Part shown: positions 5,205-41,591 of the stretch, in pieces
How the letters are laid out: each line of letters starts with the position of its first letter
Position numbering within the stretch: the first letter of the stretch is position 1
Source of the DNA: Oceanobacillus oncorhynchi
GTDB taxonomy: Bacteria; Bacillota; Bacilli; Bacillales; Amphibacillaceae
Assembly: GCF_000821065.1 (NCBI RefSeq)
Contig: NZ_CDGG01000001.1
Span: forward strand, 62,001 to 126,000
DNA length: 64,000 bases
Reading direction: 5' to 3'
The notes under the pieces: model-generated
The model's database searches: none
Seen by the model: only the letters and a program-made list of their open reading frames with translations
Told to the model about the DNA's origin: nothing
Made by a program: the position numbers and the translations under genes

Positions 5205-5309
5205 TAAAGAAACCTTCCTTCTAAAAACCGTAATGTATTTATTTTAAGCAAATATATAGCAGAAAACAATACACTTGCTCCGTTCCCCTATCCAAAACCC
5301 GGTATTTAT

Positions 5310-5663
5310 TAAGAGAAACCAAGAAAATCACTTGGTCTTTAAAATACTAATATTCTTGCCGAGCAGATGTCCGCTTCGGGAAGTCGCTTTCCGCGGGCAA
5401 CGGTTTTGACGGGGCGAGTAACCGCAGCAGTCCTAGTGGGAAGACTCCGCAGGAAAAAAGTGTTCTTCTATTTTCTACCATAGGCATAAGCGCGACTATG
5501 CTTCTGTCTGCGCCTGTCGGCTTGCCAATCAGCAAGTCTTCTTTAAAGGAGATGAGCTCGGGGCCCATGGAAAGCGTAGTGTATTTCTGGGGCCTAAGAT
5601 TACTCCCCCCATGAAACCCGTTGGAGCGGCTATCCTCAACATTTTATACTTTCTTACTCTTTA
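5310..5663 (-). repeat. Dispersed ~340-bp repeat, copy A
   Basis: Read on the minus strand, this segment matches 40870-41205 over its whole length. Shared blocks include the opening AAGAAAGTATAAAATGTTGA, a central stretch from TCTCCTTTAAAGAAGACTTG on through GACAGGCGCAGACAGAAGCA, and the end GGCAAGAATA...TTTTAAAGA. By eye about 85 percent of positions agree. It is GC-richer than its surroundings and full of potential hairpins. It contains a 73-codon ORF that is not conserved in the other copy. It accounts for most of the 5205-5740 gap. Confidence 0.85.
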
Positions 5664-10680: not shown

Positions 10681-10919
10681 TAAAAAAAACTGATTATACA
10701 TCCCTTGTAAAGGACGAAATCAGTATTATTCCGCGGTACCACCTTTGTTGATAAAAGTTATCCACTCACATTGATAATGCAGTTTACTGCAGTCAGCATA
10801 CACTAACCTACTCCCGGATAGGTTCATCAAGGCATTTACAGAAATCTTACAGCCGCCGGATTTCCTCTCTTTGGTAAATACACATCGATTACTGGCCCGT
10901 TCACCGTATTTCTTTATTG
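10681..10919 (-). promoter_or_regulatory. T-box riboswitch (tRNA-Pro) upstream of proC
   Basis: On the minus strand the conserved T-box AAAGGTGGTACCGCGG is at 10746-10731, followed by a terminator stem (ACTGATTT with AATCAGT) and eight T residues near 10689-10682. The 3' side of the specifier loop reads GAACCTA, giving a CCU (proline) specifier at 10822-10820; the AGAGAG-type element and AGTA bulge of stem I are also present. Uncharged tRNA-Pro would favour the antiterminator and turn proC on. Confidence 0.9.
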
Positions 10920-15111: not shown

Positions 15112-15387
15112 AAAAAACTCCCATCCCTTATGTAGAAAGGGACGAGAGTATATTTCCCGCGTTGCCACCCTAGTTAAAGAATCTATACAGACAGATTCTT
15201 CCGGCTTTATATACGAATAACGTCGTATCTCCGTGCTTACTTACGTGACTGAACCACTTCAATAAGCATGCTCCAGGATGGATTCACTGCATTCTAACGC
15301 TAATTTGCACCAGATATTAGCTCTCTATAGATAGAATCAAACAGCTACTGCTTCCTATCAACGCTTTATTATTTCAATGAATGATTG
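15112..15387 (-). promoter_or_regulatory. T-box riboswitch (tRNA-Ser) upstream of serS
   Basis: On the minus strand the T-box core GGGTGGCAACGCGGG lies at 15170-15156. A terminator stem (CGTCCCTTTCTACATAAGGG-type pairing, CTCTCGTCCC with GGGATGGGAG) ends in seven T residues at about 15118-15112. The specifier loop reads GAATCCA, giving UCC (serine) at 15282-15280. Uncharged tRNA-Ser would induce serS. Confidence 0.92.
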
Positions 15388-22343: not shown

Positions 22344-22474
22344 AGCCGCTACAGAAATACACTACGCTTTCCTGTGGGCTTGCGCTCAGCCTCCTCGAAA
22401 AAGAAGACCGCTTTTTCTGCGGGGTCTTCCCACTGCGCTTTCCCACGGGAGTCTCCGTGTATTTCTTCCGCTAG
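22344..22474. repeat. Palindromic repeat in the gyrB-gyrA spacer (copy C)
   Basis: About 130 bp with imperfect terminal inverted repeats: CTACAGAAATACACTACGCT on the left, and read inward from the right AGAAATACACGGAGACTCCC. Interior GCGC and CGAAAAAGAAGACCGC...CTTTTTCTGCGGGGTCTTC blocks are also self-complementary. Its ends and its TTTTTCTGCGGGGTCTTC block are shared with the centre of copy B at 40.9 kb. It would be transcribed if gyrB and gyrA are one operon. Confidence 0.75.
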
Positions 22475-22610
22475 TTATAGTGTATAATCACCATTCGATC
22501 TTGTTATAAAAAACGCAAGCATGTAATTTAATCGTTTTAATTATATCTGACAAGAAAGGGATAGAAGTACTTCTATCCGCTTTGTTGTCCTTATTAAAAG
22601 GATGTAATAC

Positions 22611-28303: not shown

Positions 28304-29647
28304 TTATAAGGATTTAAGTTTTTCTTTTAATTCTTCAATATCCCGATCGAGCTCTGTATCTGTTTCAAGCAGCTTCGAAATTTTTTCATGGGCGTGAATG
28401 ACGGTCGTATGATCTCTTCCGCCAAATTCCTGGCCAATTTTAGGCAGGGATGAGTCCGTAAGCTCCCGTGACAAATACATTGCAATCTGTCTTGGAAAGG
28501 CAATCGATTTGGTACGTTTTTTAGCAGGAAAATCTTCCAGACGGATATGATACCGGTCTGCGACAACCTCTTGAATCGCAGGAATGGTAATTTCTTTTGG
28601 TTTATTACTTGGAATGATATCCTTTAATGCATTTGCTGCCAACGATGCGTCAATGTCTTGATTGACTAAAGAAGAATAGGCAACAACACGTATCAGCGCG
28701 CCCTCCAGCTCCCGGATGTTTGTATTGATTTGATTAGCAATATAGAGCATAACCTCATTCGGAATATCTAAACCTTCTGCTTTTGCCTTTTTATTTAAAA
28801 TGGCAATTCTTGTTTCTAAGTCAGGAGGTGTGATATCGGTAATCAGACCCCATTCAAAGCGTGAACGCAAACGATCCTCTAATGTAGGAATTTCTTTTGG
28901 CGGCCGGTCACTGGAAATAATAATTTGCTTGCTTTCTTCATGCAGCGCATTAAATGTATGGAAAAATTCTTCCTGTGTGGATTCTTTTCCAGCAATAAAT
29001 TGAATATCATCAATAAGAAGGACATCAATATTGCGATATTTATTACGGAAATGATTCGATTTATTATCCATAATGGCATTGATAAATTCATTCGTAAATT
29101 TTTCAGAAGTCAGGTAAACCACTTTCGCATCTTTATTATGTTCTCTTACATAATGACCAATTGCATGCATTAAATGTGTTTTCCCTAAACCGACGCCGCC
29201 GTAGATAAATAAGGGATTGTACGCTTTAGCAGGAGCTTCCGCTACAGCTAGCGATGCTGCGTGTGCAAAGCGATTTCCGGCGCCGATAACAAATGTATCA
29301 AATGTATATTTATCATTAAGCATTGACTTGGGGGAATCCGTTGTTTTTGCATCGATATTCGGTTTTGGCATGGGTTTTTGATCGGATGGCTCTTCCACAG
29401 AATCAGGAATAATAAATTTTGCATTCAGACTTGTCCCAGTAGTTTTTTCCAATGTTTGCGTAATTAAATCTGTATACTGTGTCTCCAGCCAGTCCTTTGT
29501 AAATTCATTTGGAGCAGAGATAACCAATGTATTTTTTTCTAAGTGAAGGGCTTTTGTATTCTTCAGCCAGGTGTCAAAGCTCGGCTTACTTAATTTCTCT
29601 TTAATAATGTCCAATGTGGCATCCCAAAGTTCTTCAATATTTTCCAA
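28304..29647 (-). CDS. dnaA: Chromosomal replication initiator protein DnaA
   Basis: Binds DnaA boxes and opens the origin. The 447-residue protein has the N-terminal domain I, a variable linker (about 85-110), the AAA+ domain with Walker [11 protein letters not shown] and Walker [10 protein letters not shown], and the C-terminal box-binding signature [15 protein letters not shown]. Family alignment and spacing (AAAGGAG 10-12 nt upstream) support a TTG start at 29647, giving MENIEEL; GTG at 29659 lies in the RBS. Origin boxes lie on both sides. Confidence 0.97.
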
Positions 29648-29840
29648 AGTTACTTTCACTCCTTTCGACCTGAGTTAGGAAATAGGCTTAATAGCTGACA
29701 GCAATAAAAAAGAATCAACCAGCGCATTCCATTAATATTCATCATAGAAATTCATAACTTCTATTCAGAAGAAAAAAGCCTCTCTCAATCTATTTCATGT
29801 ATTAGATGGAAAGGCAGACGTATTAAAATAAAAAAAGCGC

Positions 29841-33000: not shown

Positions 33001-33132
33001 ATAAAAGGAAAGCCAGGGAGATTAAAATCTTTCTGGCTTTTCATTTGTATTTTAATCAACTTTCGCACCTAATAATAAGTATATATCTTGTTATCCTGGC
33101 AGGAAGAGAATGATTAAATAGTGTTATGCACA

Positions 33133-37855: not shown

Positions 37856-37990
37856 ATGAAAAAGAAACTTCTGCTAAAAATTGTCCGTTTAAGCGTGACA
37901 AGAGATGTTGAAGTTATCTTAAATGTTTTCGGTGGGACGCGTAATCACGAAATCTCTTCGATGGGGCAGGTGATTACAGCTCCGAGCTAA
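37856..37990 (+). CDS. Possible 44-residue protein between parS and noc
   Basis: The ORF begins MKKKLLLKIVRLSVTRDVEV and ends GQVITAPS. AGGA lies 10 nt before the ATG, and a terminator-like hairpin follows 19 nt after the stop, so the segment looks like a complete small transcription unit. I do not recognise the protein. Its DNA is GC-richer than the flanking spacers and has several short self-complementary pieces, so it could instead be a small structured RNA. Confidence 0.35.
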   Translation: MKKKLLLKIVRLSVTRDVEVILNVFGGTRNHEISSMGQVITAPS

Positions 37991-40817: not shown

Positions 40818-40864
40818 AAACAGCCGATATACTGCAAATAAGCAGTATATCGGCTGTTTTTTTG
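40818..40864 (+). terminator. Terminator of soj-spo0J
   Basis: A perfect 18-bp stem, AAACAGCCGATATACTGC (40818-40835) with GCAGTATATCGGCTGTTT (40842-40859), followed by further T residues. Confidence 0.9.
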
Positions 40865-40869
40865 TTAAA

Positions 40870-41205
40870 AAGTAAGAAAGTATAAAATGTTGAGGATACC
40901 CGCTCCAACGGATTTCATGGGGTGAGTAATCTTAGGCTCCAGAAATACACTCCGCTTTCCGTGGGCCTCGAGCCCATCTCCTTTAAAGAAGACTTGCTGA
41001 TTGGCAAGCCGACAGGCGCAGACAGAAGCATAGTCGCACTTATGCCCCGCGGGTAGAAAAAAAGAAGTCCGCTTTTTTCTGCGGGGTCTTCACACTGGGA
41101 CTGGGACTGCGATTACTCGTCCCATCGAAAACCGTCGCAGTTGACATCTCTTTGGCAAGAATACTCGTGTTTTAAAGATCAAGCGGTATTCTTGGTTTTT
41201 CTTAA
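40870..41205 (+). repeat. Dispersed ~340-bp repeat, copy B
   Basis: Full-length relative of 5310-5663 in the opposite orientation; it starts 6 bp after the spo0J terminator. Its centre (about 40940-40980 and 41065-41105) shares GAAATACACTCCGCTTTCCG and CTTTTTTCTGCGGGGTCTTC with the short palindromic copy C at 22344-22474. No coding sense. The remaining 41206-41590 holds a 10-bp hairpin (AAATAAGTCA 41238-41247 with TGACTTATTT 41267-41276) and no gene. Confidence 0.85.
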
Positions 41206-41591
41206 TCGTCGTAAACAAGCTAGGTGTAGATGGAATGAAATAAGTCATTTTGACAAAAAATAAAACTGACTTATTTTATATGCTGGAAATACATAGTAAA
41301 TAAAAATTTCTGATGCTTAGGAAAGTTACCTTTAGCCTAATACGCTAGGCCTCAGAATGATATTTACGTATCCTGCTCAAAATGTAATTGCAGAGACTGT
41401 AAATTCGATTTACTGTTTGCATATATGGATGAACGAATACAAGTTAAAAAATTTTTCACATGAAAAAAATATGTATTTAGATAGCTTGATTATTCTGAAA
41501 AGGTCTTTCAAATTAACTATGTGAACGCTTAATGGAATTTAATGTATTAAATGTTTCCTGAGGGAAAAATAGTAGACTAGCTAAAATTTAC

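Follow-up and report, generated by a model that had tools for sequence, protein, structure and literature searches.

Two related intergenic sequences in the 64,000-nucleotide stretch of the Oceanobacillus oncorhynchi genome analyzed here (the window) are probably mobile elements of a modular, non-autonomous family that is targeted to intrinsic terminators and moved in trans, a reading drawn from sequence comparison to which we assign a probability of about 0.7. Mobility and the terminator are much the firmer parts of this explanation, and the part that involves single-stranded DNA is tentative, with somewhat less than even odds in our estimate. The preliminary description of the pair had proposed either a non-autonomous mobile element or a structured RNA family, and both halves of that reading have gained support, the former from empty and filled sites in relatives and from near-identical copies with unrelated flanks, and the latter, as regards structure, from compensatory changes in three alignments (54, 52, and 42 sequences).

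Copy 1 (5308–5663, minus strand) and copy 2 (40866–41206, plus strand) align from end to end, as had been described, and their identity is 81.8% over 363 alignment columns rather than the 85% estimated by eye. They were also correctly placed outside genes, as no ORF of at least 120 amino acids runs over either copy; the neighbors of copy 1 are a YdcZ-type exporter ORF and a pyruvate formate-lyase-like ORF, and those of copy 2 are parB and a znuA-like ORF. The higher GC content previously noted is likewise evident (0.475 and 0.466 compared with 0.26–0.37 in the adjoining non-coding flanks). Both copies are of the type designated a. Copy 1, defined by its full-length alignment to copy 2, has its ends at 5663 (LE; profile match 5662–5617) and 5308/5310 (RE; profile match 5348–5310) on the minus strand, and its RE (5310–5348, minus, from profile match and sequence) is a CCAAG..CTTGG stem followed by a T-rich tract. 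Copy 2, delimited by alignment and end profiles, lies directly 3′ of the intrinsic terminator of parB, a hairpin and T tract at 40819–40865 (plus) that was recognized from the sequence, has a 12-bp stem in the terminator scan, and would be the insertion target; its RE (41166–41204, plus, profile match) is a CAAG-type stem followed by TTTTTCTTA. The conserved core unit, the R1 hairpin, is at 5491–5540 in copy 1 (minus, 77.2 bits with the covariance model) and at 40989–41038 in copy 2 (plus, 78.2 bits). A third member of the window (22346–22490, unstranded, module matches of 80–96%) has the backbone palindrome and no R1 hairpin, and beyond these three members there are repeat-module fragments of 26–44 nt at 33053–33094 and 37921–37965.

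Single-strand folding of the two copies was better than the shuffle mean, with z scores of −2.36 and −2.65 on the element strand and −1.42 and −3.96 on the opposite strand, and therefore their folding is not strand-specific. The scan with Rfam at the gathering score showed no family overlapping either copy, and for copy 1 none was found with E up to 1. Elsewhere the window has two T-box leaders that exceed the Rfam threshold (10707–10913 and 15135–15370, both minus). The gene dnaA is at 28304–29659 (minus) and the GC skew changes sign at about 28–31 kb, which, together with dnaN and parB, places the origin between copies 1 and 2. The two copies therefore flank the origin and each is co-directional with the replication fork, in agreement with what had been noted for the pair.

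The complete genome (4.608 Mb, one contig) was searched with the copies, and the dispersed repeat has many more than two members. With copy 1 as the query there were at least 78 matching pieces, and a 22-base core pattern with up to three mismatches occurred at 49 sites compared with none for the reversed pattern. When all module searches were combined and merged within 1 kb, at least 84 places were obtained, a few of them resting on one weak match. The two window copies belong to type a, in which the sequence opens with AAGAATARGAAAGTATA and closes with CCAAGYGGTATTCTTGGTTTTTCTTA, allowing for some variation. The other three types (b, c, and d), the lists of which came from fuzzy matching and probably include chance matches, have different, inverted ends (CTATATAAATTGAAAT, GGCTCTTCACCAAAATCTATGG, and CAATGTTGTCAGGTTAATG, respectively) and share with type a the backbone palindrome and optional hairpin modules. 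The modules, which are R1 in zero to three tandem copies, the Bacillaceae-1 hairpin, and the backbone palindrome, are gained, lost, inverted, and exchanged, and are also common to repeats with IS-like ends. Type a has the ends and the central module in variable copy number that characterize a modular repeat, the R1 unit between its ends being absent (L061), single, double, or triple (L034). L061 and L195 share 97.2% identity across 463 columns and have unrelated flanks, and L068 corresponds to L061 with one additional inverted core module; copies have thus moved recently, and modules are exchanged.

Type a elements mostly begin at intrinsic terminators, where the LE (AAGAATARGAAAG, fixed) starts in or just behind the T tract, a few bases past the hairpin. 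Terminators were detected with a custom script, the loop and stem limits of which were altered once after the first run, increasing the count from 15 to 22 of the 32 type a copies for which both the LE and the RE were located. By the final rule, with which all controls for the 22/32 were also computed, the hairpin and T tract end 4–14 nt, mostly 4–8 nt, ahead of the junction in these 22 copies and are absent at the other 10/32 junctions. The corresponding values were 1/32 downstream, 64/2000 at random positions, 138/1500 at T-rich random positions (Fisher, 1.7e-15), and 82/1280 in shuffled flanks in which the last ten bases were left in place (Fisher, 2.3e-18). The first, narrower rule gave 15/32 at the LE compared with 1/32 downstream, 123/4000 at random, and 80/1600 after shuffling. 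In the other types a terminator was at the junction in 1/13 (type b), 0/18 (type c), and 0/17 (type d). The junction of copy 1 passes the wide rule, in which long loops are allowed, and fails the first. By eye, a terminator also precedes L204, L207, and L208, in which the LE was unscored, and the LE-defined L053 and L202. Many type a elements themselves end in a small hairpin and T tract, with 16/41 REs scored as terminator-like by the first rule, and the RE can itself be a target, as the type a copy in L045 sits behind the RE of another element and L288, in another family, does likewise.

The purH, fabF, and parB sites were inspected in six relatives each. At fabF, the site is filled in O. 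oncorhynchi and in G021, where the T tract is the starting point of a type a copy, a different short element with the LE TTAGGAAAGTATAAA is in the same place in G024, the terminator is present and the element absent in G014, G022, and G026, and there is no element and another gene downstream in G010. Since the downstream flank is nearly identical in G021, G014, and G022, the simplest reading would be independent insertion in O. oncorhynchi, G021, and G024, with loss as the alternative. At parB, G010 carries a different, 65-nt element at the same T tract, and an LE behind the terminator is absent from the other five relatives. At purH a type a copy was seen in none of the six, and G014 has another repeat there.

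The fork direction shared by the window pair extends to the family. In a count that covered all 80 loci of the genome, 43 of the 46 type a copies with an LE or RE match at E up to 0.01 were co-directional with the fork (the initial count was 39/41). Addition of the weak copy L047, at 3.665 Mb and close to the inferred terminus, gave 43/47, and inclusion of L050 and L060, both co-directional with the fork, and of L198, which is opposed to it, would give 45/50; these three have parts that are type-a-like by eye and no profile match. The background was 262/382 for ORFs, drawn from stretches selected for containing repeats, and 65/116 for terminator-like sites away from the elements, the respective Fisher values being 2.0e-4 and 1.9e-6 for 43/46 and 5.6e-4 and 7.1e-6 for 43/47. 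With an assumed true background of 80% co-orientation, p would rise to 0.011 (43/46) and 0.029 (43/47), and with one of 85% to 0.071 and 0.15, respectively. Type b (10/13 with the fork) is no different from type a (p 0.11), whereas type c (7/18, p 1.1e-5) and type d (10/17, p 0.0025) are. The GC skew of the fetched stretches locates the terminus between 3.19 and 3.665 Mb; with the origin near 0.09 Mb, this sign switch makes the replichores look clearly unequal.

The R1 tandem core unit is, on comparative grounds, a strongly conserved covarying hairpin, in which a short P1a and a conserved internal loop (GAUUGGCAA / GCAGACAGA in the majority of units) separate P1 from P2. The check for compensatory changes suggested in the preliminary description was carried out on three alignments. 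The first (A1) was made with MAFFT, has no gaps, contains 54 of the 55 distinct units (one deletion variant, L044, was left out), and was given a structure written by hand after the sequences had been viewed; 95.7% of its cells are paired compared with 87.4% after shuffling, and it has 76 double-change cells compared with 25.1, with pairs having a double change numbering 5 compared with 3.4, a value reached by 71/500 shuffles. The other two were fitted to the covariance model and hence lean to its structure: A2 (52 distinct sequences, among them some from other families of the order and from named Clostridia) is 96.3% paired compared with 87.0% and has 69 double-change cells compared with 21.4, and A4 (42 different sequences, all taken from four genomes that lie outside the class) is 96.8% paired compared with 82.9% and has 62 double-change cells compared with 11.5, the double changes falling at 11 of 13 pairs. 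The length of P2 is also variable outside the class.

Judging from these and the following matches, R1 is common to many Bacilli and some Clostridia. The covariance model detected it in 34/199 genomes of the order, representing 24/97 genera, and in 10/398 genomes of the phylum, including that of O. oncorhynchi, to which a near-exact pattern was confined (1/398). A 24-position core pattern occurred in 53 stretches of named genomes, comprising, as counted from record titles, 31 from Oceanobacillus, 17 from Pontibacillus marinus, and five from Clostridia MAGs. No Rfam 15 family was found (E up to 1, in one scan 0.1) at R1 of copy 1 or at that of any of 44 other loci. The Bacillaceae-1 RNA (RF01690), a different motif from R1, exceeds its gathering threshold in the sibling copies L036, L252, L254, L256, and L264 and in three Pontibacillus loci (L136, L147, and L161); neither window copy has a match above that threshold. 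RF01690, cataloged as an RNA (Weinberg 2010, PMC2864571), thus forms, in these loci at least, one of the modules of an interspersed repeat, which places a cataloged "RNA" within a repeat that looks mobile.

The arrangement of R1 varies with lineage, its orientation relative to the LE or a nearby terminator differing among Oceanobacillus, the remaining Bacillaceae, and the genomes from outside the class. Among the other Bacillaceae-like genomes, short elements have R1, on the opposite strand, as their RE (GGCTYGCCAATCGGCGAGTTTTCTTTAT), and a number of them have TTARGAAAGTATAAA as their start, placed behind a terminator. A scan run without a control across other genera of the order marked 8/21 loci as having an LE-like end behind a terminator, one of these eight (L274) at what is probably a wrong LE. 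In the four genomes outside the class, scanned with a slightly wider reach and after two of 49 R1 matches with short flanks were dropped, a terminator-like stretch is immediately upstream of R1 in 13/47 (random, 117/2000) and downstream on the other strand in 12/47, and therefore no side is preferred there.

A mechanism that would accommodate these properties has the elements moved in trans by an enzyme that would recognize the R1 or RE hairpin in its folded state and attach the element to the lagging-strand template where this is exposed as single-stranded DNA. The terminator hairpin and T tract would mark the insertion site on the exposed single strand, and recombination among the many copies would shuffle the modules. 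The most likely enzyme would be a single-strand-acting recombinase or transposase, followed by reverse-transcriptase-linked insertion and then by a classical DDE transposase. A further-reaching reading would make these elements the bacterial equivalent of SINEs, being short and modular and having a phylum-wide R1 recognition hairpin and a terminator-like tail. They would be inserted in trans precisely where transcription units end at their 3′ side, into lagging-strand template in single-stranded form, and unrelated mobile ends would have adopted their cassette. This is speculative and fairly unlikely, its odds having been lowered because the terminator signal outside the class has no preferred side.

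No enzyme or autonomous partner was found for the elements. Y1 transposase is represented in the O. oncorhynchi genome by three genes, all broken or partial, and 7/28 genomes in the genus have no Y1 match; the repeat does have matches in some genomes that lack Y1 (G004, G020, and G026). In a scan of ten Y1 loci for LE and RE motifs, none had a Y1 gene with an LE on one side and an RE on the other, and Y1 does not account well for the elements. The standard IS200/IS605 mechanism is disfavored, there being no fixed tetranucleotide 5′ of the LE and variable bases between the T tract and the LE. LINE-like insertion is disfavored by the rarity of 5′ truncation (L205 and L198, at the T tract); among nine RE copies without an LE match, three (L204, L207, and L208) do have an LE by eye and L205 is truncated at the T tract, and L198 is a truncated piece behind a terminator. 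One Bacillaceae-type element as the query matched no phage record and one plasmid record (CP053689.1, 35877–36007), a plasmid deposited as from Arthrobacter citreus, a host name that looks doubtful. The RE pattern had no match in viral contigs and copy 2 had none in plasmids.

Several other explanations of type a were considered, of which the possibility that it is an ordinary DDE-type MITE with short terminal inverted repeats is quite improbable. Its ends are weakly inverted (TAAGAAAG / TAAGAAAA), types b–d have true inverted ends, and type c has, in addition to its terminal inverted repeat GGCTCTTCACCAAAATCTATGG, 8-bp duplications; of the five end pairs inspected, the duplication is perfect at L043, L051, and L054 (low complexity), agrees in 7/8 positions at L056, and is absent at L259. 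Type c would thus qualify as an ISL3-like MITE, GGCTCTTCACC ends with 8-bp duplications being ISL3-type features, and given the duplications it resembles a classical MITE that encloses the cassette, differing from ISL3-type MITEs in that it carries the structured cassette of type a. The window copies, however, are not type c, and the combination of terminal inverted repeats and target duplication was not found in type a, the orientation of which to the terminator is constant. There was no matching target duplication at the type a junctions inspected, most of them without an empty-site counterpart, and the junction dinucleotides are TA, TC, AC, or TG on the left and mostly TA on the right. Group IIC introns insert behind intrinsic terminators in one orientation, and type a could be derived from them as remnants or satellites, sharing the same kind of target, directly behind a terminator hairpin in 22/32 copies, and the same direction, in a genome that does have group II intron matches. 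This is very improbable, as there is no group II (domain V/VI) match in the window copies, the LE is presumably unlike an intron 5′ end, and two of the three intron matches in the genome lie inside repeats, neither at type a ends. Moreover, the copy-rich relatives G010, G014, and G021 (43, 51, and 45 repeat matches) have no RF00029 match, and group II introns were rejected as donors. The two matches inside repeats border a backbone palindrome: L248 (4551232–4551324, minus) is in a type d repeat that resumes beyond the intron, and L249 (1977266–1977358, plus), below the Rfam cut-off, borders that of a type b repeat and is known from one side only.

A role for the host would make the elements structured repeats with a back-up function in termination or a protective one at mRNA 3′ ends, comparable to REP or SPRITE sequences that have been domesticated. 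Their location behind terminators, mostly in the orientation of the gene, the partly terminator-like RE, and the absence of phage records and single plasmid record for the Bacillaceae-type query are consistent with this, but their presence among relatives at fabF, purH, and parB is patchy, their internal modules are common to types b–d, which do not follow terminators, and the LE of copy 1, which is situated between two genes, faces the start of the divergent one, all of which makes such a role rather unlikely. R1 might instead be a functional RNA, an sRNA or the target of an RNA-binding protein, that was spread on the repeats and is selected as RNA, which is unlikely. In its favor are the covariation and the conserved internal loop, inside and outside the class, and a U.G pair at columns 13–37 that is standard on one strand only. 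Outside that pair, however, the strand preference is weak and not clear (G.T 17 compared with A.C 9 on the tested strand), and the orientation of R1 to the LE or terminator is not constant across Oceanobacillus, other Bacillaceae, and the genomes outside the class.

The architecture of these elements is already known from BOX-like mosaic repeats. BOX of Streptococcus pneumoniae and S. suis is a structured, mosaic interspersed repeat with a central module in variable tandem copies, and in S. suis the same boxB module type is found between two different end pairs (Croucher 2011, PMC3049150). Compared by description only, BOX and type a are alike in being modular and structured with a variable tandem central module, but the orientation of BOX mirrors coding bias (60.8% leading strand, compared with 91–93% fork-oriented for type a), and a precise terminator junction, such as that of type a, does not appear in the portion of the BOX description consulted (PMC3049150). 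The SPRITE repeats resemble type a in having a terminator-like structure near gene 3′ ends but are themselves a long terminator-like hairpin, whereas type a lies behind a separate terminator and has internal modules (PMC3049150). A literature search of titles and abstract openings, with most subscription papers out of reach, returned no description of these elements, and a text search with R1 sequence strings returned unrelated papers only. The terminator junction, the fork excess, and the phylum-wide covarying hairpin are new as far as searched. Movers of small bacterial repeats are mostly unknown, and this family offers a testable target rule, a terminator T tract and the direction of the fork, together with a covariation-backed hairpin without an Rfam 15 match as a handle for finding the mobilizing protein across Bacillota.

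Some individual R1 loci have settings of their own. In a Lachnospiraceae MAG (L138, 1235–1285) R1 is between ORFs that read as rpsH and rplF in a ribosomal protein operon. Outside the class, a TATAAT-like box lies 2–3 nt 5′ of R1 in L367, L380, L381, L382, and L384, so that some of these hairpins may start transcripts. R1 units form head-to-tail arrays with a spacing of 105–131 nt at G425:C1 27329–27745 and G481:C17 49746–50178.
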